Shown here: piece by piece, positions 1 to 47,852 of the stretch
How positions within the stretch are numbered: the first letter of the stretch is position 1
Layout: each line of letters opens with the position of its first letter
Source of the DNA: Cafeteria roenbergensis
Taxonomy: Eukaryota > Sar > Bigyra > Bicosoecida > Cafeteriaceae
Length of the DNA stretch: 64,000 bases
Direction: 5' to 3'
Assembly: GCA_008330645.1 (NCBI GenBank)
Contig: VLTN01000074.1
Coordinates: 1 to 64,000 of the forward strand
The notes under the pieces: generated by a model
Seen by the model: the letters and a program-made list of their open reading frames with translations, nothing else
Databases searched by the model: none
Told to the model about the DNA's origin: nothing
Position numbers and translations under genes: made by a program

Positions 1-2
1 CA

Positions 3-3000
3 CGCAGGCAGCAGGACTCGGACCAGGACGACGATGACTCGGACGGTGACGAGGCTGCCGCGACCAGAGGCCCCAACCGGGGAAATGGTGGGCTGATCGG
101 AGGTGCCGGCGCACGTGAAGATTCACTGCCGGTGGATGGCGGAGCAGCCATGGAGGAGGAGAGCCAGCCACCGGAGACTCAGGACGCGTCGGGTGACGAC
201 GAAGACGGGTCGGGGGAGGATGATGATGTCGTTGGTGGAGACTGTGACGGGGCGTCAATGGATGAAGACGCAGTGAGTGCGGAGGAGAGCGAGGCGTCGG
301 GAGGTGAGGACGCGGCGGATGGGAACACTGGCGAACGGCTGGTGGATGGATGCCAAGCTACTGGGAGCCAGACCAGAGGCTCCATGGACTATGGCACAAC
401 GGACGAGGCCAGCGACGAGGGGTCGGAGGACGACGGCGAGGCGAGTGAGGAGGAGGACTGGCAGATGACGGGCGACAGCGCAGCCAGCCAGGACCAAGTC
501 GAGGAGACAATGGACGACGGAGGATGGAGTCCGAGGAGCGAGACGTCAGAGGATGATGGCGCCTCGGTCGAGGAGGAGGACGGGTCGCTGGCGGGCGACA
601 GCGCAGCCAGGGCGGAGCGAGAGGGGTCGACGGTGGACAATGGTGAATCGGGGGAGGTGGAGGATGACCCGGCGGCGGATGATGAGGAGGCGAGTAGGGA
701 GGAGGACGAGTCGGCGGAGGAGACTGGCGCAACTGGCGGAGCGCTGGGTCCATCGGCTGCAAACGCGGCGGGGACCCCGAGTGTAGGACAGGTTCACAGC
801 ACCATGCCGCAGCTCGAGGTGGAGGTGCCGGCGGCGGCAGGAGTCACAGGGCAGTTGGCCGGAGCGAACCGGACAGCGGAGCCACCGACGGGCGAGGAGG
901 GGGACATGGATGCAAGCCACGGATTGGAGGGGGATGACGCGGAGGACATGACGGGAGCGATGGCGGAAGCAGGAGGCAACGAGACGCCACTCTCTGACGG
1001 AGAGAGGGCGTGTGGGGACGGGCGGTGCAAGCGGTGCTCCACCAGCTCTCCGGACAGCCTCGCCAAGGGAGCCTTTCTGAGACACGGATGTCCCTCCAAG
1101 AAGTGGGTGCAGTGGTACATCAAGGCGCTGCTCCGGCAGTGCACCTTCGGCGAGGCCTTTGCCGCGGACAAACTGCGGCAGCGCAAGGCGGTGAGCGATC
1201 ACGTGCCGGTGGCGCTCGAGCCCACCTTGCAGCATGGCACCATGGCAGCGGCGGCGTCCCTGGCGGGTGCTGGGCGCAGAGGCAACGCGGAGGGCCACCC
1301 GACCGTCGAGCAAGCGGCGGGAATAAGGGTGCAGCTCACCACGGTAGCGGCCCTGAAGGCGTATCTGCGGCGCCAAAACGGCACTTCCGCCAAGGACCTG
1401 GCGAAGAGCATGGCGTCGGCGGGCACCGTCGCGCAGGACTGGGAGACGCTGGAGGCATTGGTGGACCTGCACCCGAGCGAGGAGGAGGTGGTAGACGGCA
1501 CGGTGGAGGGAGAAGCGCCGGACCTCACCGACTCCGAGCTTCGGGAAATGGTGTCGGCAGCGATCCAGTCGATGCCGCACAAGAAGGCCGTGGGCCCGGA
1601 CGGCATGGTCGCGAAGCAGCTGGAGAACATCGCCGAGAAGGACCTGGATGCGCTCGTGTCATTTGTCCGAAGGGCGCTGAGGAACGACCTCTCTGCCGAG
1701 GAGCGCAGGGTCCTCGGGTCGTCAACCCTGATGGCGATCCCCAAGGGCAACGGCAAGATCAGGCCGGTGGCCATGGTCTCGGGCCTGGGCAAGCTGGTGG
1801 GCAAGGTGGTGAACACCATCCTGGGGAAGCACGGACTGCTGGACCAGCTGCGCTTCCAGTTCCTGGGCTGCCGAGACGGGTCGTGCAGGCTGGTCCATGC
1901 TGTCCGCACCGCGTTCGAGGAGGGAGAGATCAGAACGGTGGTGGTAGCGTTGGACATGGCCAACGCCTACAACTCCGTCTCCAGGCGCGCGATGATCGAG
2001 GAGGTGCGGCGGTTGGACGAGAAGCTCGTGCCGGCGGTGCTGGCGCTGTACGGCTCGTCCAGCCCGCTCCTCTTTGCCACGGACGAGGGCGAGGTCTTTG
2101 AGCTGGAGTCCAACAGGGGCGTGCGTCAAGGCGACCCGGCAGCGGGCGCACTGTTTGCGATCGCAGTGCACCCCCTGGTGGACGAGGTGAGGCGCGCCTT
2201 CCCAGATGTGCTCATCTTGCAGATGGCCGACGACACGACGCTCGTGGGCCCGAGGAGGAGCGCCTTCAAGGCAGCCCAGATGCTGGCCGAGCGGCTCAGC
2301 ACGGTGGGGCTGCGGATGAACGCCGACAAGACCCAGGTGCTGTGCAAGCGAGGACAGCTCGAGAGAACCAAAGCCAGAATTCGGCGGGAGATGAAGCGGA
2401 GTAGGGACGATCCAGGGTCCCCACCCTCGGTGCTGGAGGGGTGCCACCTCACCGAACGGAGCGTGGCGGTGCTGCAGTGTCCTGTGGGGGAGGAACTCCC
2501 GCCGGAGGTGGCACTTGAGCACTCGATGAAGCGACTGGAGAAGGAGTTCGGGCCGGCCGCGGAGCGCCTGCTCGCGGGCATCGAGGTCTGCGGGCTCAAG
2601 CGGGCGCACCACCTGCTGCTGTCGGTGGTGGGCCAGAAGTTCAGCTACCTGCACAGAGCAGCGGGTGCGGCGGCGGGCCAGGAGCTGGCGGTGTTCCATG
2701 CGGCGCTGCTGGCCAACCTGTCAGCGGTGGCGCACAAGACGGAGCTGGATGCGATCGGCCACGCGCTCTCGGACGAGATGTGCACGGTGACCGAGGACGG
2801 CTTCCGTGAGGCCATGTCCAAGGCCATCGAGGCGCTTGTTCGGGGGCTGCCGGACGAGCACGCAAGGCGGGAGGCGTGGTGGGCGCTCCTGGGCCGGGAA
2901 GCCGACGGTGTGACTCGGCTCGCATCGGCAGCGTCCAACCCGGCCTTGAAGAAGGGAGGCTACGCTCAGATGAGGCTGGCAAAGATGCTGAGCAAGGGCT

Positions 3001-3518
3001 GCAAAGCCGGGGGCATGGGCCTGCCTGGCGTGGCGCAGTTCCGCTTCGAGGCGACAGCGGGCTTCATCGAGGCCGTTCGGGACATGCGGAAAGGGCGGTT
3101 CGAGATGGCACCACCGCCGGAGGAGGCCCTCGACGGACCCGGCACTGGTGGAGGCGGAGGCGAAGCGGCGTCGGGGAGTGGTGCCGGAGCGGGACCAGCC
3201 AACGCCGGCGAGGCGGAAGCGGAGGATGAGTCGGGTGCGGCGGCTGCTGCAGCGGGCGGCACGCCGTGGGTGGACCACCCGGCGGTCGGAGAGAGCGAGT
3301 CCAAGGAGGACTGCGAGGAGGGGCCGGCGCACGGGCAGCAGCTTGCAGGTACGCTGGACGGCTGGCTCGTCAGCGGTACGGGGGGAGCGGCTGAACCGGG
3401 GGCATCAGCCAACACCGACAAGCGGAGGCCAGACGGTCGGCGGAGGTGCGGCTGCCGCCAGCGCGGCGGGAGCGGCGACCGAGATGACGACGAGCGGCGG
3501 CGGCGCAGCGGCAGCTAG
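3..3518 (+). CDS. LINE reverse transcriptase ORF (5' partial)
   Basis: Reverse transcriptase of a non-LTR retrotransposon, which would copy element RNA at a nicked target. The frame is open from base 3, so the start lies upstream; the first in-frame ATG is at 150. The N-terminal third is Asp/Glu-rich and low complexity. A Cys/His cluster (CGDGRCKRC then HGC) lies near 1012-1090. The RT core follows: KAVGPDG near 1586, a catalytic block VALDMANAYNS near 1945, GVRQGDP near 2118, and the active-site box QMADD near 2220. Most LINEs have YADD there, so Met replaces Tyr. Downstream, GGMGLPGVAQFRFEA near 3012 matches the GGLGL block that follows RT in many algal and plant LINEs. The end (3400-3518) is probably out of frame: the neighbouring +1 frame there continues as sensible sequence into the REL domain, suggesting one broken polyprotein. 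Likely a decayed copy. Confidence 0.85.
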   Translation, partial: RRQQDSDQDDDDSDGDEAAATRGPNRGNGGLIGGAGAREDSLPVDGGAAMEEESQPPETQDASGDDEDGSGEDDDVVGGDCDGASMDEDAVSAEESEASGGEDAADGNTGERLVDGCQATGSQTRGSMDYGTTDEASDEGSEDDGEASEEEDWQMTGDSAASQDQVEETMDDGGWSPRSETSEDDGASVEEEDGSLAGDSAARAEREGSTVDNGESGEVEDDPAADDEEASREEDESAEETGATGGALGPSAANAAGTPSVGQVHSTMPQLEVEVPAAAGVTGQLAGANRTAEPPTGEEGDMDASHGLEGDDAEDMTGAMAEAGGNETPLSDGERACGDGRCKRCSTSSPDSLAKGAFLRHGCPSKKWVQWYIKALLRQCTFGEAFAADKLRQRKAVSDHVPVALEPTLQHGTMAAAASLAGAGRRGNAEGHPTVEQAAGIRVQLTTVAALKAYLRRQNGTSAKDLAKSMASAGTVAQDWETLEALVDLHPSEEEVVDGTVEGEAPDLTDSELREMVSAAIQSMPHKKAVGPDGMVAKQLENIAEKDLDALVSFVRRALRNDLSAEERRVLGSSTLMAIPKGNGKIRPVAMVSGLGKLVGKVVNTILGKHGLLDQLRFQFLGCRDGSCRLVHAVRTAFEEGEIRTVVVALDMANAYNSVSRRAMIEEVRRLDEKLVPAVLALYGSSSPLLFATDEGEVFELESNRGVRQGDPAAGALFAIAVHPLVDEVRRAFPDVLILQMADDTTLVGPRRSAFKAAQMLAERLSTVGLRMNADKTQVLCKRGQLERTKARIRREMKRSRDDPGSPPSVLEGCHLTERSVAVLQCPVGEELPPEVALEHSMKRLEKEFGPAAERLLAGIEVCGLKRAHHLLLSVVGQKFSYLHRAAGAAAGQELAVFHAALLANLSAVAHKTELDAIGHALSDEMCTVTEDGFREAMSKAIEALVRGLPDEHARREAWWALLGREADGVTRLASAASNPALKKGGYAQMRLAKMLSKGCKAGGMGLPGVAQFRFEATAGFIEAVRDMRKGRFEMAPPPEEALDGPGTGGGGGEAASGSGAGAGPANAGEAEAEDESGAAAAAAGGTPWVDHPAVGESESKEDCEEGPAHGQQLAGTLDGWLVSGTGGAAEPGASANTDKRRPDGRRRCGCRQRGGSGDRDDDERRRRSGS

Positions 3519-5267
3519 TGCGGCTGGCGCTCCAACCGGCCAAGAGACATCTGATGCCGCACAGCCGAGAGCGGATGCGGCACAGGTCTACTCGGTCAGG
3601 CGAACGCCGGCGATCGGGTTGGCCAGGGACGGACCCGACGCGGACGCGGACGGCAACGACCCCAACTGGAAGGGCATCTCGCTCAAGAAACTCGTGAGGA
3701 GCTCGCTGAAGCGCTCAGACCGCAGCGATGCGACCAAGGAGGTGGGCGACATCCTGCTGCGATGCGAGGAGGTCGCCAAGGGAGCCTACCGGGACTACGA
3801 GCGGGACAGCAAGGAGTACAAGGACGCCTGCACCGAGGCACGGTACTTCAGGCCGGACAAGGACTGCGTCGTGGGCAAGGAGGCCGACCTTCATGACGCC
3901 AGGGTGAAGAAGCGCTACCAGCTGGCGCACGTGTGGAGGTCGGACATCGCGGGGGCTGTCGAGGGCCTGGAAGAGCTGCGCGCCGAGATCGAGGAGCTGG
4001 CGCTGGAGGCGATGATGGAGCTCAGATCTGACGACGAGTCGTCGGATGACATGGAGGCAACTGCAAACCTGGTGGAGGAGTTCATCAGGGCATGCAAGGG
4101 AGCCCGCTGCCTGGCCGCAGCGACAGGGTTCGAGGGCTTCTTGCCCGACACCCTGGGTAAGCTGCCGGGCGAGCTGAAGGCCAAGCTCCGCAAGTGCCTG
4201 TACGGCGACGGGGTGACAGCGCGGGCGAACGAGCAGACCGAGGCGCCCTGGCAGCGCAAGATGGTGCTGCACCACGATGACATGCTGCGCATCAAGCACG
4301 AGTGCGCCTTCCTGCGCCGGCTGGCCAAGGCGCGCAGGGCCTGCACAGCACGCTGCAGGGCCGAGGCGCTGGCCAAGGGCACGACGGAGAAGCGTGTCGC
4401 CAACATCGACGACCCGGCCATGTTCCGCGTCATGAGCGACCTGGTCGCGTTCCGGGAGGCATGCGTGCCGGGAACACACTACTGGCTCCGCAACACGATG
4501 ATGGGACCCCGCGGGCTCACGGACGAGGAGTTTGCGGTGGTGGAACGCTACCGCATCGGAGCCTCCGAGGCCGACCACGTGGTGCCGGACGGCGTGTCGA
4601 TCAACTGCGCGTGCATGCAGCGAGACACCACCGCGAGAGGCACCGTCCACATCGGCGGGGTCTCCGGCGTGGCACACCACCTGGCGCGTTGCCGCTGCGG
4701 CAAGGGCTCCACCATCCGGGCGCACAACGACGTCCGCGACGTCCTGCACGCGGCGGTGCGCTCGGCGGGGCTGCAGTCGGTGGTGGAGCCCTCCAGCTGG
4801 CAGGACGGTCAGGCGCGCTTCGGGTCCCAGCCGGGTCCAGCGAGGCCGCGCGCAAGCGACCGGACCTGCGGGTGCACGTCGACTTCGAGACCACCCGTCT
4901 CGTCGACGTGCAGATCACCTCGGCGGTGAGCAAGTCCTACGTGACGCAGGGCCTGCAGAACATGGACGCCTTTCTCGAGCGCCGTGAGAATGACAAGATG
5001 AGGGAGTACAAGAAGAGCTCAGCTACAAAGGACAACATGAGCTCCATTGTGCCCTTCGTCATCACGACCACGGGACGCATGGGACCGGCGGCCTTCGCCT
5101 TCCTCAAGAAGGTGGCGGACACGGCCTTCGGCGACCGGCCGAGGGAGCGTGCGCGCTGGGCCTTCCGCTGGCTGTCGAGGCTGAACGAGGTCATCGCCAA
5201 GGGACTGGCGACCCAGCTGATCGGGCAGACGCAGTACCTGCGACAGCAGGTGGAGCGTTTGCGGTGA
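3400..5267 (+). pseudogene. REL endonuclease domain of the LINE, copy 1 (frameshifted)
   Basis: This is the C-terminal restriction-like endonuclease part of the same LINE, in the +1 frame relative to the RT ORF. The first stretch is Ala/Gly-rich, then helical charged sequence, then a zinc-knuckle and nuclease region: CAC near 4609, HH and CRC near 4675-4700, IRAHNDV near 4717, and a PD...DV nuclease core (KRPDLRVH then LVDVQIT). Near 4828-4838 this copy reads one G fewer than copies 2 and 3, which throws the frame so that it stops at 4929. The original frame resumes and ends at 5267. The Cys-His knuckle followed by RHN-like and PD-D motifs is typical of REL LINEs of the R2/NeSL/CRE type; the clade is not resolved. 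At least one clear 1-nt lesion makes this copy inactive as it stands. Confidence 0.75.
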
Positions 5268-5448
5268 GCAGGGGCGGCTGAGTGGCGACTCGAGGCAGTG
5301 TGATGGCAGGGATCTGGGCTTGGGACTTGGGATTGTGGGTTTGGCGCGGTTTGTGACTCATTGGTGATGGAGTTGCTGGATTGGTGATTGGTGAGTCTGT
5401 GAATCGAGTGTGTGGTATGGTTACGCGAGTTTTCGACCCCCCCCAACG

Positions 5449-6762
5449 ATGTTCACGGGCCTGGAAGAGCTGCGCGCCGAGATCGAGGAGCTGGCGCTGG
5501 AGGCGATGATGGAGCTCGGATCTGACGACGAGTCGTCGGATGACATGGAGGCAACTGCAAACCTGGTGGAGGAGTTCATCAGGGCCTGCAAGGGAGCCCG
5601 CTGCCTGGCCGCAGCGACAGGGTTCGAGGGCTTCTTGCCCGACACCCTGGGTAAGCTGCCGGGCGAGCTGAAGGCCAAGCTCCGCAAGTGCCTGTACGGC
5701 GACGGGGTGACGGCGCGGGCGAACGAGCAGACCGAGGCGCCCTGGCAGCGCAAGATGGTGCTGCACCACGACGACATGCTGCGCATCAAGCACGAGTGTG
5801 TCTTCCTGCGCCGTCTGGCCAAGGCGCGCAGGGCCTGCACAGCACGCTGCAGGGCCGAGGCGCTGGCCAAGGGCACGCCGGAGAAGCGTGTCGCCAACAT
5901 CGACGACCCGGCCATGCTGCGCGTCATGAGCGACCTGGTCGCGTTCCGAGAGGCGTGCGTGCCGGGAACGCACTACTGGCTCCGCAACACGATGATGGGA
6001 CCCCGCGGGCTCACAGACGAGGAGTTCGCGGTGGTCACCCGCTACCGCATCGGAGCCTCCGAGGCCGACCACGTGGTGCCGGACGGCGTGTCGATCAACT
6101 GCGCGTGCGTGCAGCGGGACACCACCGCGAGAGGCACCGTCCACATCGGCGGGGTCTCGGGCGTGGCACATCACCTGGCGCGCTGCCGCTGCGGCAAGGG
6201 CTCCACCATCCGGGCGCACAACGACGTCCGCGACGTCCTGCACGCGGCGGTGCGCTCGGCGGGACTACAGTCGGTGGTGGAGCCCTCCAGCTGGCAGGAC
6301 GGGCAGACGCGCTTCGGGTCCCAGCCGGGGTCCAGCGAGGCCGCGCGCAAGCGACCGGACCTGCGGGTGCACGTCGACTTCGAGACCACCTGTCTCGTCG
6401 ACGTGCAGATCACCTCGGCGGTGAGCAAGTCCTACGTGACGCAGGGCCTGCAGAACATGGACGCCTTTCTCGAGCGCCGTGAGAATGACAAGATGAGGGA
6501 GTACAAGAAGAGCTCAGCTACAAAGGACAACTTGAGCTCCATTGTGCCCTTCGTCATCACGACCACGGGACGCATGGGACCGGCGGCCTTCGCCTTCCTC
6601 AAGAAGGTGGCGGACACGGCCTTCGGTGACCGGCCGAGGGAGCGTGCGCGCTGGGCCTTCCGCTGGCTGTCGAGGCTGAACGAGGTCATCGCCAAGGGAC
6701 TGGCGACCCAGCTGATCGGGCAGACGCAGTACCTGCGACAGCAGGTGGAGCGTATGCGGTGA
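5449..6762 (+). CDS. REL endonuclease domain, copy 2 (5'-truncated element, intact frame)
   Basis: Second copy of the REL region, head to tail behind copy 1. It lacks all RT sequence and begins at the GLEELRAEIEELALEAMM segment. The only in-frame ATG upstream of the homology is inside the junction word (aacgATGttca), so the insertion junction supplies a start codon and gives a 437-codon frame. The zinc-knuckle (CAC ... HH ... CRC), RAHNDV, KRPDL and LVDVQIT motifs are all intact, and the G missing from copy 1 is present. The ORF ends QQVERMR-stop at 6762. It is very close to copy 3 and slightly more distant from copy 1. Whether it is expressed is unknown. It could act in trans as an endonuclease or simply be a recent dead-on-arrival insertion. 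Confidence 0.7.
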   Translation: MFTGLEELRAEIEELALEAMMELGSDDESSDDMEATANLVEEFIRACKGARCLAAATGFEGFLPDTLGKLPGELKAKLRKCLYGDGVTARANEQTEAPWQRKMVLHHDDMLRIKHECVFLRRLAKARRACTARCRAEALAKGTPEKRVANIDDPAMLRVMSDLVAFREACVPGTHYWLRNTMMGPRGLTDEEFAVVTRYRIGASEADHVVPDGVSINCACVQRDTTARGTVHIGGVSGVAHHLARCRCGKGSTIRAHNDVRDVLHAAVRSAGLQSVVEPSSWQDGQTRFGSQPGSSEAARKRPDLRVHVDFETTCLVDVQITSAVSKSYVTQGLQNMDAFLERRENDKMREYKKSSATKDNLSSIVPFVITTTGRMGPAAFAFLKKVADTAFGDRPRERARWAFRWLSRLNEVIAKGLATQLIGQTQYLRQQVERMR

Positions 6763-6951
6763 GCAGGGGCGGCTGAGTGGCGACTCGAGGCAGTGTGATG
6801 GCAGGGATCTGGGACTTGAGACTTGGGATTGTGGGTTTGGCGCGGTTTGTGATTCATCGGTGATGGAGTTGCTGGATTGGTGATTGGTGAGTCTGTGAAT
6901 CGAGTGTGTGGCATGGTTACGCGAGTTTTCGACCCCCCCCAACGATGTTCA
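5456..6951 (+). mobile_element. REL-type LINE, copy 2 (5'-truncated)
   Basis: Begins directly after the junction word of copy 1 and ends with the same tail: C8 at 6933-6940, then AACGATGTTCA at 6941-6951. It contains only the REL region and 3' tail. Confidence 0.75.
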
Positions 6952-8473
6952 GTCAACCTAACCTATATTTCGCGGTGTTGTCGAGGGCCTGGAAGAGCTG
7001 CGCGCCGAGATCGAGGAGCTGGCGCTGGAGGCGATGATGGAGCTGACGACGAGTTCTCGGTTGACATGGAGGCAACTGCAAACCTGGTGGAGGAGTTCAT
7101 CAGGGCCTGCAAGGGAGCCCGCTGCCTGGCCGCAGCGACAGGGTTCGAGGGCTTCTTGCCCGACACCCTGGGTAAGCTGCCGGGCGAGCTGAAGGCCAAG
7201 CTCCGCAAGTGCCTGTACGGCGACGGGGTGACGGCGCGGGCGAACGAGCAGACCGAGGCGCCCTGGCAGCGCAAGTTGATGCTGCACCACGACGACATGC
7301 TGCGCATCAAGCACGAGTGTGTCTTCCTGCGCCGTCTGGCCAAGGCGCGCAGGGCCTGCACAGCACGCTGCAGGGCCGAGGCGCTGGCCAAGGGCACGCC
7401 GGAGAAGCGTGTCGCCAACATCGACGACCCGGCCATGCTGCGCGTCATGAGCGACCTGGTCGCGTTCCGAGAGGCGTGCGTGCCGGGAACGCACTACTGG
7501 CTCCGCAACACGATGATGGGGCCCCGCGGGCTCACAGACGAGGAGTTCGCGGTGGTCACCCGCTACCGCATCGGAGCCTCCGAGGCCGACCACGTGGTGC
7601 CGGACGGCGTGTCGATCAACTGCGCGTGCGTGCAGGGGGACACCACGGCGAGAGGCACCGTCCACATCGGCGGGGTCTCGGGCGTGGCACATCACCTGGC
7701 GCGCTGCCGCTGCGGCAAGGGCTCCACCATCCGGGCGCACAACGACGTCCGCGACGTCCTGCACGCGGCGGTGCGCTCGGCGGGACTACAGTCGGTGGTG
7801 GAGCCCTCCAGCTGGCAGGACGGGCAGACGCGCTTCGGGTCCCAGCCGGGGTCCAGCGAGGCCGCGCGCAAGCGACCGGACCTGCGGGTGCACGTCGACT
7901 TCGAGACCACCTGTCTCGTCGACGTGCAGATCACCTCGGCGGTGAGCAAGTCCTACGTGACGCAGGGCCTGCAGAACATGGACGCCTTTCTCGAGCGCCG
8001 TGAGAATGACAAGATGAGGGAGTACAAGAAGAGCTCAGCTACAAAGGACAACTTGAGCTCCATTGTGCCCTTCGTCATCACGACCACGGGACGCATGGGA
8101 CCGGCGGCCTTCGCCTTCCTCAAGAAGGTGGCGGACACGGCCTTCGGTGACCGGCCGAGGGAACGTGCGCGCTGGGCCTTCCGCTGGCTGTCGAGGCTGA
8201 ACGAGGTCATCGCCAAGGGACTGGCGACCCAGCTGATCGGGCAGACGCAGTACCTGCGGCAGCAGGTGGAGCGTATGCGGTGAGCAGGGGCGGCTGATTG
8301 GCGACTCGAGGCAGTGTGATGGCAGGGATCTGGGATTTGAGACTTGGGATTGTGGGTTTGGCGCGGTTTGTGATTCATCGGTGATGGAGTTGCTGGATTG
8401 GTGATTGGTGAGTCTGTGAATCGAGTGTGTGGCATGGTTTTGCGAGCTTTTGACCCCCCCCAACGATGTTCAC
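6952..8473 (+). mobile_element. REL-type LINE, copy 3 (5'-truncated)
   Basis: Follows copy 2 after a short AT-richer filler at about 6952-6980. It ends in C9 (8454-8462) and AACGATGTTCA (8463-8473). It contains the REL region and 3' tail only. Confidence 0.75.
7066..8283 (+). CDS. REL endonuclease domain, copy 3 (5'-truncated)
   Basis: Third head-to-tail copy of the REL region. Homology resumes at about 6974 after a 20-odd-base filler that follows the junction word. The start region has a net 7-base deletion relative to copy 2 (around 7043-7060), which puts the first part out of frame. The REL frame is open from MEATANLV at 7066 to the stop at 8283. The zinc-knuckle, RAHNDV, KRPDL and LVDVQIT motifs are intact. 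It differs from copy 2 at only scattered bases over more than 1 kb, so it is recent. Its 5' breakpoint is within a few bases of that of copy 2, which is odd if the two were independent random truncations. Confidence 0.65.
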   Translation: MEATANLVEEFIRACKGARCLAAATGFEGFLPDTLGKLPGELKAKLRKCLYGDGVTARANEQTEAPWQRKLMLHHDDMLRIKHECVFLRRLAKARRACTARCRAEALAKGTPEKRVANIDDPAMLRVMSDLVAFREACVPGTHYWLRNTMMGPRGLTDEEFAVVTRYRIGASEADHVVPDGVSINCACVQGDTTARGTVHIGGVSGVAHHLARCRCGKGSTIRAHNDVRDVLHAAVRSAGLQSVVEPSSWQDGQTRFGSQPGSSEAARKRPDLRVHVDFETTCLVDVQITSAVSKSYVTQGLQNMDAFLERRENDKMREYKKSSATKDNLSSIVPFVITTTGRMGPAAFAFLKKVADTAFGDRPRERARWAFRWLSRLNEVIAKGLATQLIGQTQYLRQQVERMR

Positions 8474-9439
8474 ACCGCCGACGACGCGTGGGCCGTCTCT
8501 CCCCTATTGGCCTTATGGTCCGGAGACTCGATCCAAGTCACCCCGGCCTTCCGCGTGTATGCTGACGCCGCGGAGCGGACAGGGCTCACTCTCCCCTTCG
8601 GGAAAACGGCAGCGGCCACAATCTCGACAGCATTCCTGTACGTCGGAGCGGCCCGGCCCCAGCGGTTCGCGACCGCCACCGTGGCTTCCTACTACCACAA
8701 CGTCATCCGCCTGGCCCGCCTCATGTTGATGGAGCCAGACGCGGCGACCTCGCGCCTGGTGGGCTCCCTCGTAACTAAGCGCATCCAGAGGTGGGGACGC
8801 CCCACCATCGACAAAAGAGGCGTGTTCTCCCGGGGAGACGTTGTCCGCGCCATCAGCCTCGCCACCGTGGACCCCGCGGTGGCCGCAGCCACAGCTGCGT
8901 GCTGGGACGCTGTGTCCCGGGCCGGGTCCCTGCTTACCCGCCAGTCCCCGGGCTCTCGCAGCGACCCGACGCCGCGAGCGCAGGCCAGAGTCCTCAAGCG
9001 CAGGCCCTTTCTCGTCGTGGAACTCCAAGTCTTCGAGAAGATGTCCAAGTCGTGGGAGCGCCTCCTCTTCGATACCGACCCCTCTTCCCCACAATACAAT
9101 CCCACAGCCGTGGGAGCCGCAGCCGCCATCGAGAGGCTCATGGCCGAGCGCCGGCCCCCCTCCGAGCCCCTCTGGCGAAAGCGAGACGGCACGCACGTCG
9201 TTCCTTCCGATCTGGTGGCCGCCCTCCAGGCGGCTAACCCTCACCTGCGCATGTGCCGCATTACCCCGCACAGCTTCCGAATCTCGGCTGCTAGCTGGCT
9301 TGTGAACCAAGCCCACGTCAGCCGGGAGCGCGTCGCGGCCCTTGGCCGCTGGCACGGCCCGAAAACTCTTGACACCTACATCCGAGTGAACACCGTCGTC
9401 CCGGAGTTCACCCGACTGGATCGCTCTGCGATGCCCTGA
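8474..9439 (+). CDS. Tyrosine recombinase (5'-truncated, no ATG)
   Basis: A tyrosine recombinase/integrase would cut and rejoin DNA through a Tyr-DNA intermediate. C-terminal catalytic motifs are visible: a candidate first Arg in VSRAGSLL near 8917, the HSFR box near 9268 (HxxR), GRWHG near 9343, and the nucleophile Tyr in TYIRV near 9379. The order and spacing fit DIRS/Crypton-type recombinases better than bacterial XerC. The frame is open leftward into the tail of LINE copy 3 without any ATG near the natural N-terminus; the first in-frame Met is far inside (near 8723). The segment therefore starts abruptly at the LINE junction and lacks its true N-terminus. It is followed at 9808-9956 by the LINE tail, so it looks like a 5'-truncated retro-insertion. 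The catalytic core appears complete. Confidence 0.7.
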   Translation, partial: TADDAWAVSPLLALWSGDSIQVTPAFRVYADAAERTGLTLPFGKTAAATISTAFLYVGAARPQRFATATVASYYHNVIRLARLMLMEPDAATSRLVGSLVTKRIQRWGRPTIDKRGVFSRGDVVRAISLATVDPAVAAATAACWDAVSRAGSLLTRQSPGSRSDPTPRAQARVLKRRPFLVVELQVFEKMSKSWERLLFDTDPSSPQYNPTAVGAAAAIERLMAERRPPSEPLWRKRDGTHVVPSDLVAALQAANPHLRMCRITPHSFRISAASWLVNQAHVSRERVAALGRWHGPKTLDTYIRVNTVVPEFTRLDRSAMP

Positions 9440-9956: not shown

Positions 9957-10091
9957 TTCAACCCAGGGATTTAGGGCTTTGGACTTGGGATTGCGGGTTT
10001 GGCGCGGTTTGTGATTCATCGGTGATGGAGTTGCTGGATTGGTTCTTGATGAGTCTGTGAATCGAGTGGTGCCCCCCCCCAACGATGATCA
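9957..10091 (+). mobile_element. LINE 3' tail fragment (copy 5)
   Basis: Only the last 120 or so bases of the LINE tail are present, ending in C9 (10072-10080) and AACGATGATCA, one base different from the other four junctions. This last junction overlaps the stop codon of ankyrin gene A on the minus strand. Confidence 0.7.
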
Positions 10092-13000
10092 TCTAGAAGC
10101 ATGGGCGCATGCCCACAGCGTCAAGTGCCGGCGGCGATGCCATCGCTGGAGCCGCTCGGCACTGCGAAGCACTCCGGCGCACGCACCGCTCGCGCAAATG
10201 CCGAGCGCGTCTTGGCCAGCCTGCAGTCGCAAATGCCAATTCGTTGGCCAAAGCAACCGCAATGGAGACGTTGCCTTGGCGAGCAGCATGAACGGCGATC
10301 TCTTTGGGGCCAGGACTCTGGCTGTCAACGTACCAGTCCAACTAAACCATTGCGCACGTCGCCGGCACTCCGGGAACACGGCAAGCTGAAATGCCGCTAC
10401 AACTTCACCATATTCTTGGCCTCAAGGTCGGCGCCCCGGTCCAGCAGCAGCTCCACCGTGTCCTTGTAACCACTTTGTACAGCTCCGTGAAGCGCCGTAG
10501 ACCCATTCTGCGAGGCCGCGGGCCCTCATGTCAACGCGCCTCGTCGCACCATCGCTCCCCTGCTGAAGTCCCTCTCGGCCAGCGCCGTCTTTCACACAGG
10601 CCCACGTCAGCAGCACGACGCCCCGACGCATCACTGCCAGTGTCGTGCCCCTCCACCCGCCCGTGACGCCCGGCGCGGCCCGTTGCGCAGCAAACACACG
10701 GCCGCCGCACTCACGCGGTCCTTGGCCTCAAGGTCGGCGCCCCGGTCCAGCAGCAGCTCCACCGTGTCGTTGTAACCACTTTGTGCAGCCTCGTGAAGCG
10801 CCGTAGACCCGTCCTGCGACGCCGCGGGCCCGCATGTCAGCGCGCCTCGTCGCACCATCGCTCCCCTGCTGAAGTCCCTCTCGGCCAGCGCCGTCTTTCA
10901 CACAGGCCCACGTCAGCGGCACGACGCCCCGACGCATCACCGCCACCACCGTGCCCCTCCACCCGCCCGTGACGCCCGGCGCGGCCCGTTACGCAGCAAA
11001 CACACGGCCGCCGCACTCACGCGGACCTTGGCCTCAAGGTCGGCGCCCCGGTCCAGCAGCAGCTCCACCGTGTCGTTGTAACCACTTTGTGCAGCCTCGT
11101 GAAGCGCCGTAGACCCGTCCTGCGACGCCGCGGGCCCGCATGTCCCCGCACCTCGTCGCACCATCGCTCCCCTGCTGAAGTCCCTCTCGGCCAGCGCCGT
11201 CTTCCACATAGGCTCGCGACAACAGCACGACGCCCCGACGCATCACTGCCAGTGTCGTGCCCCTCCACCCGCCCGTGACGCCCGGCGCGGCCCGTTGCGC
11301 AGCAAACACACGGCCGCCGCACTCACGCGGTCCTTGGCCTCAAGGTCGGCGCCCCGGTCCAGCAGCAGCTCCACCGTGTCGTTGTAACCACTTTGTGCAG
11401 CCTCGTGAAGCGCCGTAGACCCGTCCTGCGACGCCGCGGGCCCGCATGTCCCCGCACCTCGTCGCACCATCGCTCCCCTGCTGAAGTCCCTCTCGGCCAG
11501 CGCCGTCTTCCACATAGGCCCACGTCAGCAGCACGACGCCCCGACGCATCACCGCCAGTGTCGTGCCCCTCCGCCCGCCCGTGACGCCCGGCGCGGCCCG
11601 TCGCACAGCAAACACACGGCCGCCGCACTCACGCGGACCTTGGCCTCAAGATCGGCACCCCAGTCCAGCAGCAGCTCCACCGTGTCCTTGCAACCACATT
11701 GTGCAGCCTCGTGAAGCGCCGTAGACCCGTCCTGCGACGCCGCCGGCCCTCATGTCACCGCACCTCGTCGCACCATCGCTCCCCTGCTGAAGTCCCTCTC
11801 GGCCAGCGCCGTCTTCCACATAGGCTCGCGACGACAGCACGACGCCCCGACGCATCACCGCCAGCGCTGTGCCCCTCCACCCGCCCGTGACGCCCGGCGC
11901 AGCCCGTTGCGCAGCAAACACACGGCCGCCGCACTCACGCTGTCCTTGGCCTCGAGGTCGGCGCCCCGGTCCAGCAGCAGCTCCACCGTGTCCTTGTAAC
12001 CACATTGTGCAGCCCCGTGGAATGCCGTAGACCCGTCCTGCGACGCTGCGGGCCCTCATTTCACCGCGCCTCGTCGCACCATCGCTCCCCTGCTGAAGTC
12101 CCTCTCGGCCAGCGCCGTCTTCCACATAGGCTCGCGACAACAGCACGACGCCCCGACGCATTACCGCCATCGCCGTGCCCCTCCACCCGCCCGTGACGCC
12201 CGGCGCGGCCCGTTGCGCAGCAAACACACGGCCGCCGCACTCACGCGGTCCTTGGCCTCAAGGTTGGCGCCCCGGTCCAGCAGCAGCTCCACCGTGTCCT
12301 TGTGGCCATACCGTGCTGCTGACACAAGCGCCGTCGACCCGTCCTGCGACGCCGCGGGCCCTCATTTCACCGCACCTCGTCGCACCATCGCTCCCCTGCT
12401 GAAGTCCCTCTCGGCCAGCGCCGTCTTCCACATAGGCTCGCGACAACAGCACGACGCCCCGACGCATCACCGCCAGCGCCGTGGCCCTCCACCCGCCCGT
12501 GACGCCCGGCGCGGCCCGTTGCGCAGCAAACACACGGCCGCCGCACTCACGCTGTCCTTGGCCTCAAGGTTGGCGCCCCGGTCCAGCAGCAGCTCCACCG
12601 TGTCGTTGTGGCCACGCCGTGCTGCTGAGACAAGCGCCGTCGACCCACCCTGCGACGTCGCGGGCCCGCATGTCACCGCACCTCGTCGCACCATCGCTCC
12701 CCTGCTCAAGTCCCTCTCGGCCAGCGCCGTCTTTCACACAGGCTCGCGACCGCGGCATAACGCCCCGACGCATCGCCGCCAGCGCCGTGCCTCTCCACCC
12801 GCCCGTGACGCCCGGCGCGGCCCGTTGCGCAGCAAACACACGGCCGCCGCACTCACGCGGACCTTTGCCTCAAGGTCGGCGCCCCGGTCCAGCAGCAGCT
12901 CCACCGTGTGCTTTCGACCACGTTTTGCAGCCCAGTGAAGCGCCGTAGACCCATTCTGCGACGTCGCGGGCCCGCATGTCGCCGCACCTCGTCGCACCAT

Positions 13001-16000
13001 TGCTCCCCTGCTGAAGTCCCTCTCGGCCAGCGCCGTCTTCCACATAGGCCCGCTACGGCGGCACGACGCCCCGACGCATCACCGCCATCGCCGCACACCC
13101 CAACCCGCCCGTGACGCGCGGCGCGGCCCGTCGCGCAGCAACCACACGGCCGCCTCAATCACCTCGTTCTTGGCATTCGGGTCAGCACCGCGGTCAAGTA
13201 GAACCTCCACCGTGTCTCTGTGGCATTCAGATGCAGCTACAACAAGCGCCGTAGACCCATACTGCGACGTCGCGGGCCAGCATGTCACCGCACCTCGTCG
13301 CACCATCGCTCCCCTGCTGACTTCCGCCTCCCCCCGCCAGCTTCACCTCATCAGCCTGACCGCGACAGAAGCACCGCGCGCCGACGCCTCAGCGCCATCG
13401 CCACACCCTCGCCCGCTCGTGACGCCCGGCGCGGCCCGTCGCACAGCAAACACACGGTCGCCTCAATCACCTCGTCCTTGGCCTCAAGGTCGGCACCGCG
13501 GTCCAGCAGCAGCTCCACCGTGTCCTTGTAACCCCTTTCTGCAGCCTCGTGAAGCGCCGTAGACCCATTCTGCGACGTCGCGGGCCCGCATGTCCCCGCA
13601 CCTCGTCGCACCATCGCTCCCCTGCTGAAGTCCCTCTCGGCCAGCGCCGTCTTCCACATAGGCCCGCTACGGCGGCACGACGCCCCGACGCATCACCGCC
13701 ATCGCCGCACACCCCAACCCGCCCGTGACGCGCGGCGCGGCCCGTCGCGCAGCAACCACACGGCCGCCTCAATCACCTCGTTCTTGGCATTCGGGTCAGC
13801 ACCGCGGTCAAGTAGAACCTCCACCGTGTCTCTGTGGCATTCAGATGCAGCTACAACAAGCGCCGTAGACCCATACTGCGACGTCGCGGGCCAGCATGTC
13901 ACCGCACCTCGTCGCACCATCGCTCCCCTGCTGACTTCCGCCTCCCCCCGCCAGCTTCACCTCATCAGCCTGACCGCGACAGAAGCACCGCGCGCCGACG
14001 CCTCAGCGCCATCGCCACACCCTCGCCCGCTCGTGACGCCCGGCGCGGCCCGTCGCACAACAACCACACGGCCGCCTCAATCACCTCGTCCTTGGCCTCA
14101 AGGTCGGCACCGCGGTCCAGCAGCAGCTCCACCGTGTCCTTGTGGCCACGCCGTGCTGCTGAGACAAGCGCCGTAGACCCACCCTGCGACGCCGCGGGCC
14201 CGCATGTCACCGCACCTCGTCGCACCATCGCTCCCCTGCTCAAGTCCCTCTCGGCCAGCGCCGCCTCCCACGCCGGCCCTTGACCGCGGCACGACGCCCC
14301 GACGCACCACCGCCATCGCCGTGCCCCTCCACCCGCCCGTGACGCCCGGCGCGGCCCGTTGCGCAGCAACCACACGGCCGCCGCACTCACGCGGCCGTCG
14401 GCCTGAAGATCGGCGCCCCGGTCCAGCAGCAGCTCCACCGTGTCCTTGTGGCCACGCCGTGCTGCTGAGACAAGCGCCGTAGACCCACCCTGCGACGTCG
14501 CGGGCCCGCATGTCACCGCACTTCGTCGCACCATCGCTCCCCTGCTGAAGTCCCTCTCGGCCAGCGCCGCCTCCCACGCCGGCCCGCAATGGCGGCACGA
14601 CGCCCCGACGCATCACCGCCATCGCCGTGCCCCTCCACCCGCCCGTGGCGCCCGGCGCGGCCCGTTGCGCAGCAAACACACGGCCGCCGCACTCACGCGG
14701 CCGTCGGCCTGAAGATCGGCGCCCCGGTCCAGCAGCAGCTCCACCGTGTCCTTGTGGCCACCTCGTACAGCCCCGTGAAGCGCCGTAGACCCGTCCTGCG
14801 ACGCCGCAAGCCCGCATGTCACCGCACCTCGTCGCACCATCGCTCCCCTGCTGAAGTCCCTCTCGGCCAGCGCCGCCTCCCACGCCGGCCCGTGACCGCG
14901 GCACGACGCCCCGACGCATCACCGCCATCGCCGTGCCCCTCCACCCGCCCGTGACGCCCGGCGCCCCGTTCCGCAGCAACCACACGGCCGCCTCAATCAC
15001 CTCGTCCTTGGCCTCCAGGTCGGCACCGCGGTCCAGCAGCAGCGCCACCGTGTCCTTGTGGCCACGCCGTGCTGCTGACACAAGCGCCGTAGACCCATAC
15101 TGCGACGTCGCGGGCCCGCATGTCACCGCATCTCGTCGCACCATCGCTCCCCTGCTGAAGTCCCTCTCGGCCAGCGCCGTCTTCCACACAGGCTCGCGAC
15201 AACAGCACGACGCCCCGACGCATCACCGCCATCGCCGTGCCCCTCCGCCCGCCCGTGACGCCCGGCGCGGCCCGTTGCGCAGCAAACACACGGCCGCCGC
15301 ACTCACGCGGTCGTCGGGCTCAAGGTCGGCGCCCCGGTCCAGCAGCAGCTCCACCGTGTTGTTGCTGCCACGCCGTGCTGCTGAGACAAGCGCCGTAGAC
15401 CCATACTGCGACGTCGCGGGCCCGCATGTCACCGCACCTCGTCGCACCATCGCTCCCCTGCTGAAGTCCCTCTCGGCCAGCGCCGTCTTTCACACAGGCT
15501 CGCGACAACAGCACGACGCCCCGACGCATTACCGCCAGCGTCGTGCCCCTCCACCCGCCCGTGGCGCACGGCGCGGCCCGTTGCGCAGCAAACACACGGC
15601 CGCCGCACTCACGCGGTCGTCGGCCTCAAGGTCGGCGCCCCGGTCCAGCAGCAGCTCCACCGTGTCGTTGTGGCCACGCCGTGCTGCTGAGACAAGCGCC
15701 GTAGACCCACCCTGCGACGTCGCGGGCCCGCATGTCACCGCACCTCGTCGCACCATCGCTCCCCTGCTCAAGTCCCTCTCGGCCAGCGCCGTCTTTCACA
15801 CAGGCCCACGTCAGCAGCACGACGCCCCGACGCATCACCGCCAGCGTCGTGCCCCTCCACCCGCCCGTGGCGCCCGGCGCGGCCCGTTGCGCAGCAAACA
15901 CACGGCCGCCGCACTCACGCGGTCATTGGCCTCAAGGTCGGCGCCCCGGTCCAGCAGCAGCTCCACCGTGTCGTTGTGGCCACGCCGTGCTGCTGAGACA

Positions 16001-17930
16001 AGCGACGTAGACCCATACTGCGACGTCGCGGGCCCGCATGTCACCGCACCTCGTCGCACCATCGCTCCCCTGATGAAGTCCCTCTCGGCCAGCGCCGTCT
16101 TTCACACAGGCCCGTGACCGCGGCACGTCGCCCTGACGCATCACCGCCAGCGCCGTGCCCCTCCACCCGCCCGCCCGTGACGCCCGGCGCGGCCCGTTGC
16201 GCAGCAAACACACGGCCGCCGCACTCACGCGGTCGTCGGCCTCAAGGTCGGCGCCCCGGTCCAGCAGCAGCTCCACCGTGTCCTTGTGGCCATACCGTGC
16301 TGCTGACACAAGCGCCGTGGACCCATACTGCGACGTTGCGGGCTCTCATGTCAACGCGCCTCGTCGCACCATCGCTCCCCTGCTGAAGTCCCTCTCGGCC
16401 AGCGCCGCCTTCCACACAGGCCCGCAATGGCGGCACGACGCCCCGACGCATCACCGCCAGCGCTGTGCCCCTCCACCCGCCCGTGACGCCCGGCGCGGCC
16501 CGTTGCGCAGCAAACACACGGCCGCCTCAATCACGCGGACCTTGGCCTCAAGGTTGGCGCCCCGGTCCAGCAGCAGCTCCACCGTGTCCTTGTGGCCATA
16601 CCGTGCTGCTGACACAAGCGCCATGGACCCATACTGCGACGTCGCGGGCCCGCATGTCACCGCATCTCGTCGCACCATCGCTCCCCTGCTGAAGTCCCTC
16701 TCGGCCAGCGCCGCCTTCCACGTGGGCCCGCAATGGCGGCACGACGCCCCGACGCATCACCGCCAGCGTCGTGCCCCTCCACCCGCCCGTGGCGCCCGGT
16801 TCGCCCCGTTGAGTAGTAGCCACACGGCCGCCGCACTCACGCGGTCCTTGGCCTCAAGGTCGGCGCCCCGGTCCAGCAGCAGCTCCACCGTGAGCTTTCG
16901 ACCACGTTGTGCAGCCCAGTGAAGCGCCGTAGACCCATACTGCGACGTCGACGGCCCTCATGTCACCGCGCCTCGTCGCACCATCGCTCCCCTGCTGAAG
17001 TCCCTCTCGGCCAGCGCCGCCTCCCACGCCGGCCTGCGACCGCGGCACGACGCCCCGACGCATTACCGCCATCGCCGTGCCCCTCCACCCGCCCGTGACG
17101 CCCGGCGCGGCCCGTTGCGCAGCAAACACACGGCCGCCGCACTCACGCGGTCCTTGGCCTCAAGGTTGGCGCCCCGGTCCAGCAGCAGCTCCACCGTGTC
17201 CTTGTGGCCACCTCGTACAGCCCCGTGAAGCGCCGTAGACCCATTCTGCGACGCCGCGGGCCCGCATGTCACCGCGCCTCGTCGCACCATCGCTCCCCTG
17301 CTGAAGTCCCTCTCGGCCAGCGCCGCCTCCCACGCCGGCCTGCGACCGCGGCACGACGCCCCGACGCATTACCGCCATCGCCGTGCCCCTCCACCCACCC
17401 GTGACGCCCAGCGCGGCCCGTTGCGCAGCAACCACACGGCCGCCGCACTCACGCGGACCTTTGCCTCAAGGTTGGCACCGCGGTCCAGCAGCAGCTCCAC
17501 CGTGTCCTTGTGGCCACGCCGTGCTGCTGAGACAAGCGCCGTAGACCCACCCTGCGAGGTTTCGTGCGTTCAACCACCGCAATCCGCACGTCTTGCGACC
17601 GGCGCTGCCTCAGACTGGCCACCCATCGGCAAGTTTTGCGACCGCTTTGGTCGCCATCGCGGTCGACACCCCCTACGTTGTGCCGCGTAGTCAATGGCGC
17701 AGCAACCCAATTGGTGAAAGATGGACAGTTGACTGGTTGTACCGCGACCCATGCTCCCGGCAGCGAGCGGGGAGCGTGCCTACAGTCTCAGGGCTCACAG
17801 CAGCAGGGTTTCTCCAGCCAACGCGCGCGCCCTCATCGAGGAGCCTACATGCCGCGGCGGTGTCCCCGGCCTTCGCCGCCTCCCAGAGCGCGCTTGCCGC
17901 TGCACTTTCATCCACTGCGGGGGTGGCCAT
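10089..17930 (-). CDS. Ankyrin-repeat protein A, 26 exons, one ankyrin repeat per exon
   Basis: Exon 1 (17799-17930) starts MATPAVDE and encodes a capping repeat (ALWEAAKAGDTAAACRLLDE). There follow 24 exons of exactly 99 bases, the first at 17453-17551 and the last at 10409-10507. The terminal exon (10089-10220) encodes a module containing AERLQRWHRRRHLTLW. All junctions I checked are phase 0, so the spliced protein is about 879 residues with 25 ankyrin repeats. Donors are mostly CGC|GTGAGT or GAG|GTGATT and acceptors GCAG. Each repeat fits xGSTALxxAAxxG..DTVELLLDRGAD. Introns are about 207 bases, nearly identical between units, and each contains an in-frame stop. Ankyrin repeats are protein-binding scaffolds; there is no signal peptide, membrane segment or enzymatic domain, so the partner is unknown. 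The model rests on splice consensus and perfect frame continuity, not transcript data. Confidence 0.8.
10400..17560 (-). repeat. Tandem array of 24 exon+intron units, period about 306 bp
   Basis: The plus-strand word for the DTVELLLD segment (ccagcagcagctccaccgtg) or a close variant recurs every 304-309 bases, from about 10440 to about 17480, giving 24 units. Within it, a segment near 13056-13435 is essentially repeated at offset 614 (13670-14049), a recent two-unit duplication. Intron sequence is as conserved as exon sequence, or more so. Confidence 0.9.
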
Positions 17931-26611: not shown

Positions 26612-27000
26612 GTCTACAGTCCGCGTGGCGGCAGCTGGGCAGTTGCCGCCGGTCGCGATTGTTCGGCCGCCGTCTTGGCCGAGCGCGACGGCACTGCCGC
26701 GTTGCGCGGACTGGCACCGCCCCAAGCTGGCGCAATTTTTTTTTTGCGTGCTGTGATCTTCTCGGCCCCCCTCCCCCGGCCGCCCGGCCGCTCGCCCCCG
26801 CTCGCAGGCTGCGCGCGCGCCTCGGCAGCGACGCTGCTGCGCTGTCGACCACCACGGGCGCGATGCAGCGGCCCGCGGACACCACGCTGGAGAAGCTAAC
26901 GCCCTTCGAAACTGAGCTTGACAAGAAGCTCAAGACGGTGGCAGGCACCCACACCAGGCGCGGCGCCACGAGGGGTGCCAAACCCGCGGCGAAGCGCTGA
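26214..27000 (+). CDS. Small two-exon protein, possibly ciliary
   Basis: Exon 1 is 26214-26410 (donor GTGAGC at 26411, phase 2) and exon 2 is 26808-27000 (acceptor GCTCGCAG). The spliced frame is continuous and encodes about 129 residues. N-terminal sequence includes MSELTFVETWRQRIDSE and ASEWGSLES, then a Glu/Arg/Lys-rich helix across the splice (EEQIEQKRAEIAALRARL), then TTLEKLTPFETELDKKL and a basic tail ending GAKPAAKR. The W..R...E......W..WG-like spacing is faintly reminiscent of small microtubule inner proteins such as C20orf85/CIMIP1, but this is weak and the family is not assigned. The intron contains a CTG run and a T10 run. Divergent pairing with a CEP95-like gene makes a ciliary role reasonable. 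Its last codons seed the downstream minisatellite. Confidence 0.6.
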
Positions 27001-27290
27001 GGCCGCTCAACCCAAGCGCTGAGGCCGCTCAACCCAAGCGCTGAGGCCGCTCAACCCAAGCGCTGAGGCCGCTCAACCCAAGCGCTGAGGCCGCTCAACC
27101 CAAGCGCTGAGGCCGCTCAACCCAAGCGCTGAGGCCGCTCAACCCAAGCGCTGAGGCCGCTCAACCCAAGCGCTGAGGCCGCTCAACCCAAGCGCTGAGG
27201 CCGCTCAACCCAAGCGCCGAGGCCGCTCAACCCAAGCGCTGAGGCCGCTCAACCCAAGCGCTGAGGCCGCTCCACCCAAGCGCCACCCGC
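26990..27290. repeat. 22-bp minisatellite arising from the end of a coding exon
   Basis: About 13 copies of a 22-base unit (ggccgctcaacccaagcgct + ga). The first copy overlaps the last codons and stop (AAGCGCTGA) of the small gene. Since 22 is not a multiple of three, the array is non-coding. Units are nearly identical, so it is recent. Confidence 0.9.

Positions 27291-46215: not shown

Positions 46216-47852
<1,637 letters not shown>

Follow-up and report, generated by a model that had tools for sequence, protein, structure and literature searches.

Apparently mostly subtelomeric arrays of single-repeat ankyrin exons in Cafeteria burkhardae, a putative germline-evolving repertoire of binders

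Introduction

Brown-algal ROCO and NB-ARC-TPR proteins were reportedly the subject of Zambounis 2012 as candidate immune receptors. They are among the closest described counterparts of the gene considered here, an array of ankyrin exons at positions 10089–17930 (minus strand) of a 64,000-nucleotide stretch, hereafter the window, of contig VLTN01000074.1, deposited as Cafeteria roenbergensis, a name of which strain BVI is now C. burkhardae (Hackl 2020, PMC6972860). In the brown-algal ROCO genes each leucine-rich repeat (LRR) occupies one 72-bp phase-2 exon, with exon shuffling, diversifying selection and alternative splicing described (PMC11378527, Teng 2024). According to that account, the receptors of brown algae, which are also stramenopiles, share with the Cafeteria array the design of one solenoid repeat per exon, the constant phase, exon shuffling and diversifying selection. 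They differ in that LRRs are joined to a GTPase core and tetratricopeptide repeats (TPR) to NB-ARC, whereas the Cafeteria array is built of 99-bp phase-0 ankyrin exons, with no signalling domain found, in a unicellular bicosoecid and at apparently subtelomeric positions.

Tetrahymena carries arrays of 90-bp phase-2 LRR exons that, as in Cafeteria, hold a single repeat apiece and keep the same length and phase, the youngest arrays being enriched near centromeres and telomeres beside an element related to long interspersed nuclear elements (LINE-like) (PMC6564038). The differences, on that description, are the use of LRRs rather than ankyrin repeats, the phase 2, the LINE-like element, the ciliate germline and a scale of thousands of genes; the term “positive selection” is absent from the main text of the paper. 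Fungal NOD-like receptors (NLRs) with highly conserved ANK, TPR or WD repeats also show near-identical repeats, repeat-number polymorphism, ankyrin repeats included, concerted evolution and positive selection at ankyrin positions that lie for the most part on the concave face (Dyrka 2014, PMC4986451). There, the repeats form the C-terminal part of NACHT or NB-ARC proteins, whereas the Cafeteria proteins are ankyrin only with intron-separated repeats, and the main text of the fungal study does not contain the word “intron”. For comparison with animal ankyrins, the first 209 residues of the predicted Cafeteria protein gave sequence matches to 5y4d and 7tw3. Animal ANK1 resembles the array in its 24 ankyrin repeats and in exon borders related to the repeats, but its repeats are old, diverged and fixed in number and its introns are not known to be homogenised. 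Libraries of designed ankyrin repeat proteins (DARPins) share the fixed 33-residue scaffold, varied surface positions and N- and C-terminal caps (PMC8683736, PMC8229355), but are laboratory designs.

Judged from sequence, the Cafeteria family appears to work like the LRR, TPR and NLR repeat systems yet belongs to none of them, because its repeats are ankyrin, its exons are 99 bp in phase 0 and the gene holds no nucleotide-binding domain. The logic is known from the brown-algal, Tetrahymena and fungal systems, while the ankyrin-only, retroelement-flanked bicosoecid version appears to be new; among the papers listed, a coverage that excluded subscription papers, none described arrays of ankyrin exons from Cafeteria or similar 99-bp ankyrin exon arrays. 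Ankyrin would thereby join LRR and TPR as a repeat type in the protist exon-per-repeat receptor design, and this further stramenopile case points to introns having been recruited convergently as handles for exchange. C. burkhardae, a marine unicellular predator, serves as a laboratory host for a giant virus and its companion virophage and has four sequenced strains (PMC6972860, PMC8547959), so that diversity, expression and targets are directly testable.

The reading favoured here, at a probability of roughly 0.7, is of a mostly subtelomeric ankyrin family with exchangeable exons and diversified binding-face codons, which would serve as a germline-evolving repertoire of binders. At the level of predicted genes, the analysis establishes an intact modular gene, a conserved scaffold, an excess of change at the putative face codons, unit turnover in one allelic pair and an outward orientation near contig ends.

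Structure of the Array Gene

The complete gene predicted by splice-site scan, gene model and Pfam comprises 26 exons encoding 879 residues, with an ATG beginning at 17930 and a stop codon ending at 10089, exactly where the original prediction had placed them. Exon 1 (17799–17930, 132 bp) contains the start codon and an N-terminal capping half-repeat, MATPAVDESAAASALWEAAKAGDTAAACRLLDEGARVGWRNPAA, and ends at the donor GTGAGC of a 247-bp first intron (17552–17798). It is followed by 24 tandem exon-plus-intron modules (10409–17551), in which every exon is exactly 99 bp, lies in phase 0 and encodes one ankyrin repeat, with internal introns of 205–211 bp. The last intron (10221–10408, 188 bp) has the donor GTGAAG and the acceptor CTGCAG and leads to a last exon (10089–10220, 132 bp) encoding the C-terminal cap, AGQDALGICASGACAGVLRSAERLQRWHRRRHLTLWACAHASR, and the stop.

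Repeat exons 1–6 lie at 17551–17453, 17245–17147, 16939–16841, 16633–16535, 16327–16229 and 16017–15919; exons 7–12 at 15711–15613, 15405–15307, 15099–15001, 14795–14697, 14489–14391 and 14183–14085; exons 13–18 at 13875–13777, 13569–13471, 13261–13163, 12955–12857, 12649–12551 and 12343–12245; and exons 19–24 at 12037–11939, 11731–11633, 11425–11327, 11119–11021, 10813–10715 and 10507–10409. All 24 are intact, preceded by AG, followed by GT and without an internal stop, which bears out the earlier description of 24 one-repeat, 33-codon, phase-0 exons; a narrower sequence pattern recovered 21 of them and a wider one all 24. Tandem Repeats Finder independently reported a period of 306 bp with 23.3 copies and 89% matches across 10415–17557. 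The near-invariance of the repeat scaffold also holds, residues 2, 3, 9, 17, 18, 21–23, 25 and 26 being invariant in the window.

Pfam assigned the ankyrin family PF00023 to both pieces of the protein that were scanned, the first 242 residues (E 4.9e-52, six stretches) and the last 175 (E 4.7e-40, four stretches), and returned no credible domain outside the ankyrin families; the remainder consists of repeats by inspection, and folding into an ankyrin solenoid is to be expected. A weak ADP-ribosyltransferase match in the C-terminal piece (E 1.2e-05), none of whose stretches passed individually, was judged a repeat artefact. The ROC-COR GTPase and LRRs are absent from the two scanned pieces, the rest being ankyrin by inspection and no genome-wide search having been made, and neither NACHT nor NB-ARC stands beside the repeats in the complete gene model, NACHT not having been searched across the genome.

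The Array Family Across the Genome

The genome searched amounts to 36,303,456 bp in 167 contigs; the window takes up the initial 64 kb of one of these, the 155,221-bp contig C74. A search with the intron placed arrays on at least 18 other contigs (best 40 of 93 candidates scored). In the 19 stretches so obtained, 240 units were scored, 3 to 32 per stretch, some stretches being cut by contig ends; an AG acceptor was present in 239, a GT donor in 237 and a stop codon in one, so that 236 units combine both splice sites with an open frame. Chance is excluded as the source of the exon structure because relatives keep these splice sites at the predicted edges. The unit scan fixed the exon length at 99, and that length is nevertheless taken as real because the splice sites are near-perfect at both edges. 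The 213 measured introns span 132–226 bp, and their lengths modulo 3 are evenly spread (77/72/64), which argues that the intron is not a coding part.

An N-cap start was recovered by pattern search in 14 of the 19 stretches, and N-cap regions by DNA similarity at 37 places, with one more from the pattern search making 38. Downstream of the arrays on contigs C155, C55, C43, C8, C4, C10, C129 and C14 the C-cap motif AE-x-QRWHRRR is seen by eye, with a diverged form downstream of the C15 array. The window array would be one member of a large C. burkhardae family of ankyrin solenoid proteins with an N-cap and a basic C-cap. The exact 33-base module pattern had no match in collections of viral contigs and genome contigs, from which records of the source genome were possibly excluded.

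Intronless ankyrin genes also occur in the genome. Contig C28 holds, at 60–70 kb, a tandem cluster of several that are highly self-similar, while C126 and C162 carry genes with a 34-residue period, near-identical starts and ends and different repeat numbers (612 and 523 residues), possibly an allele pair with repeat-number polymorphism. An origin of the intron from such paralogs, whose period is 102 bp, was considered and rejected: blastn of 23 window introns against eight of these loci gave no match, and 3 × 102 = 306 is therefore taken as coincidence.

Divergence of the Repeat Codons

In the window, residue 1 is Tyr in 8 repeats, Asp in 7, Gly in 5 and Asn in 4; residue 8 is S, E, G, W or V, residue 11 is R, Q, S, E or K, and residue 12 is R, S, Y, G, E or C. 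These counts match the list of variable residues originally proposed, which extends less well beyond the window. The most variable codons of 14 other arrays are, in order, 1, 8, 11, 12, 33 and 3, then 15, 32 and 7, with little variation at codons 14 and 16, both on that list, and hardly any at codons 31 (0.10), also on it, and 24 (0.06).

Contact codons are here the seven which we take to match DARPin variable positions 2, 3, 5, 13, 14, 26 and 33. Divergence was measured pairwise within arrays, at first and second positions of contact and framework codons, at fourfold sites of framework codons and in introns. The 240 units were reduced to 236 by the splice and stop filter and to 198 by an intron length of 188–230 bp; with C31, C51 and C2 dropped for too few units, 16 arrays remained, and 14 after removal of the window, where the variable sites had first been noticed, and of the haplotig C129.

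Across the 16 arrays, mean divergence was 0.157 in introns, 0.166 at fourfold sites, 0.083 at framework codons and 0.331 at contact codons; the agreement of intron and fourfold values makes the two neutral references consistent. Contact codons thus diverge about twofold more than either reference on average, and framework codons about half as much. The corresponding window values are 0.105, 0.151, 0.066 and 0.303. Contact divergence exceeds intron divergence in 16 of 16 arrays and fourfold divergence in 15 of 16, and in the reduced set it exceeds introns in 14 of 14 (Wilcoxon p 6e-5), in agreement with the earlier expectation that variable codons change faster than introns. Only 0.064% of 200,000 random draws of seven codons matched the contact set in the 14 arrays. 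The five contact codons named at the outset (1, 11, 12, 31 and 33) also fared well as a set, outranking 99.95% of all five-codon sets there; codon 31 is not variable, however, and codons 8 and 3, unnamed as contacts, vary outside the window. The contact signal is carried by codons 1, 3, 8, 11, 12 and 33. For the 31 nearest-neighbour exon pairs that separated most recently (1–3 differences, C129 excluded), the ratio of nonsynonymous difference (pN) to all-codon synonymous difference (pS) is 2.5 for contact codons and 0.77 for framework codons.

Divergence above two neutral references demonstrates favoured change at the presumed binding-face codons, and the pairwise comparisons indicate diversifying selection at repeat positions that the assumed DARPin numbering would place as exposed. 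The comparison with DARPins is inexact, since codons 24 and 31, presumably varied in DARPins, hardly vary in the Cafeteria arrays, and codon 8 shows the reverse.

Unit Turnover and Concerted Evolution

Arrays evolve in concert: for the 198 units, the nearest neighbour lies in the same array in 80% of cases by intron and 64% by exon, against 7% expected. Within arrays, exons are identical in only 2 of the 33 pairs whose introns differ by less than 1%, and in 18 pairs that do share the same exon sequence the introns diverge by up to 20%. The former figure implies that exon replacement or conversion acts beside unequal exchange.

Three candidate pairs of allelic arrays were compared and one proved allelic, the 22.8-kb contig C129 and C10, which agree at 98.5–99.2% over about 18 kb including both array flanks. 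Their first ten units agree except for a few single bases, three of which break the frame and are likely read errors. Past that point the units are no longer the same; the scan scored 14 of them in C10 and 11 in C129, whose array is 171 bp shorter. The pairs C55/C88 and C31/C51 were rejected as alleles, homology being confined to the gene surroundings in the former and ending about 5 kb inward of the gene in the latter. At their right ends the two contigs C31 and C51 are 96–98% identical over the final 10 kb, while the 1.4–3.5 kb examined further in is not shared, which implies recent exchange between chromosome ends with the ankyrin array carried along. Nowhere else in the assembly does the window gene recur in near-identical form. 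Within it, units 13 and 15, which flank unit 14 (13163–13875), encode the same repeat, likely a recent block duplication, over which equal-length plus-strand frames (12939–13562 and 13553–14176) lie. Unit turnover, part of what was first proposed, is supported by the C10/C129 pair and the window duplication; a strict linkage of exon and intron is not.

Position near Apparent Chromosome Ends

On contigs of at least 50 kb, 28 of 34 N-cap matches fall no more than 20 kb from an end, every one of them with transcription running outward; the other six have a more internal position, and in four of these the direction is away from the closer end. The distal sequence was inspected because assembly breaks at repeats could mimic an end location. 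In the window it is a plus-strand retroelement array (1–8471) that reaches the contig end, with an RVT_1 match (E 2.9e-20) at about 1737–2345 and three 3′ copies of about 1.5 kb (3966–5454, 5460–6950 and 6988–8471). The element's terminal motif, CATCGTTGGGG on the gene strand, begins at 10087, adjoining the stop codon of the gene, and is common to other array-bearing ends. Of the 19 arrays, 11 are followed by it, though not at a constant point, and in C31, C51, C68, C79 and C136 it comes before any C-cap.

A sampled search with the retroelement 3′ part listed 75 matches (best 40 of 243 candidates). All 61 of these on contigs of at least 50 kb lie no more than 16.8 kb from an end with the 5′ side outward, and among the 75 listed, truncation affects the 5′ side in 30 and the 3′ side in 2. 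The reverse transcriptase (RT) part gave 40 matches, 16 of them plus-strand, and these 16 without exception fall in the first 9 kb of a contig. The element thus forms head-to-tail, 5′-truncated arrays at contig ends; telomeric retrotransposons likewise form head-to-tail, 5′-truncated copies with their 3′ ends inward. Exact telomere patterns, TTAGGG ×4 and TTTAGGG ×3, were absent from the genome. The arrays look truly subtelomeric because the distal sequence consists of such telomeric-retrotransposon-like copies and exact telomere runs are lacking. The terminal element itself looks like a retrotransposon-based telomere, a reading possibly more novel than the ankyrin arrays themselves.

Between this element and the gene, at 8474–9436, lies a tyrosine-recombinase fragment (PF00589, below cut-off) of a different element, with near-identical copies in the interior of C12, C85 and C31 and others close to where C7 and C44 begin. 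Ngaro elements are known from C. burkhardae (PMC8547959).

Interpretation and Alternative Explanations

Under the favoured reading, repeats can be gained, lost or replaced without a break in frame because each is a phase-0 exon between near-identical introns. The introns would supply extended homology at which unequal crossing-over and conversion can take place, a role to which their homogenisation, the one allelic pair and the block duplication point. Selection would keep the scaffold codons while favouring change at those lining the presumed concave binding face. The proteins would then most likely act as germline-evolving binders of variable partners, perhaps viruses, prey bacteria or mates; binding of varied partners and a benefit from diversity, that is, a role in recognition, are what we infer from this pattern. 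In strain E4-10, ankyrin (IPR002110), as a domain class, is enriched among genes up-regulated in stationary phase (PMC7852580).

Several observations weigh against this reading. The contact codons do not exceed fourfold sites in C129. Their choice follows an assumed DARPin numbering, two of the seven (codons 24 and 31, DARPin positions 26 and 33) show no variability in these arrays, and codon 8, among the most variable, stands outside the set. The framework mean, 0.083, omits the contact set together with codons 7, 8 and 32; with the contact set alone omitted, the remaining 26 codons give 0.114, below introns in 12 of 14 arrays. The stretches C43, C4 and C136 are mixtures of two neighbouring arrays, which inflates both intron and contact values, and pairwise comparisons inside one array are not independent. 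Intron and contact distances are positively correlated in 14 of 16 arrays, so that the uncoupling of exon from intron is incomplete, which fits recombining homologous introns and occasional exon replacement. Tandem arrays are prone to misassembly, and the sole allelic pair carries single-base indels, likely sequencing errors. Splicing of the array is deduced from conservation. No signalling domain was found in the two Pfam-scanned pieces, and a six-frame search of the genome for PF00931 (NB-ARC) gave zero matches.

A more far-reaching version of the binder reading, considered unlikely, is that this free-living predator has a DARPin-like cytosolic repertoire of dozens of end-located ankyrin-only genes, with exon exchange, possibly many isoforms per cell, and retrotransposon ends driving turnover. 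The retrotransposon, which apparently caps the ends and cuts the arrays, could be the engine of such a system, and giant viruses or prey could be its targets.

The family may instead be an ordinary large group of ankyrin scaffold proteins under concerted evolution, whose variable codons are unconstrained surface in neutral drift. Homogenisation of introns and exons within arrays fits this, as does the general variability of surface positions in ankyrin proteins. It is nonetheless unlikely, since drift predicts the neutral rate and contact codons exceed introns in every array and fourfold sites in all but one, about twofold on average, an excess also found in the most recent exon pairs.

Diversity could also be produced at the transcript level, interchangeable phase-0 exons being skipped to yield many isoforms per cell, as in arthropod Dscam. 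Splice sites are near-identical throughout, any subset of exons keeps the frame, and alternative splicing of such exons is reported for brown algae (PMC11378527). Skipping in long arrays may however be noise that the cell removes, and this too is improbable.

Exon-biased gene conversion or a mutational hotspot without selection, with tracts homogenising introns and not exons, would account for the rarity of identical exons between near-identical introns (2 of 33) and for the raised fourfold divergence of 34 such pairs (0.075 against 0.005 in introns). Framework codons, however, are conserved inside the same exons whose contact codons differ, and fourfold and intron divergence are similar overall (0.166 and 0.157), which leaves this very unlikely. 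A decaying satellite or pseudogene array merely resembling exons, which frame-breaking indels in some relatives (one C10 unit and C129) and arrays cut off by the retroelement (C31, C51, C68, C79 and C136) might suggest, is already disfavoured and most improbable, given that none of the 24 window exons is broken or lacks a splice site and that framework codons diverge less than the neutral rate.

Other Features of the Window

A photosynthetic host was considered and set aside, the light-harvesting family PF00504 giving no match. The window also contains a BBS7 gene. A 761-bp GCTT run (46294–47054, 190 copies, 98% matches) lies just past a 3134-residue open frame ending at 46215, and a 22-bp unit is repeated 13.3 times with 98% matches at 26992–27283.

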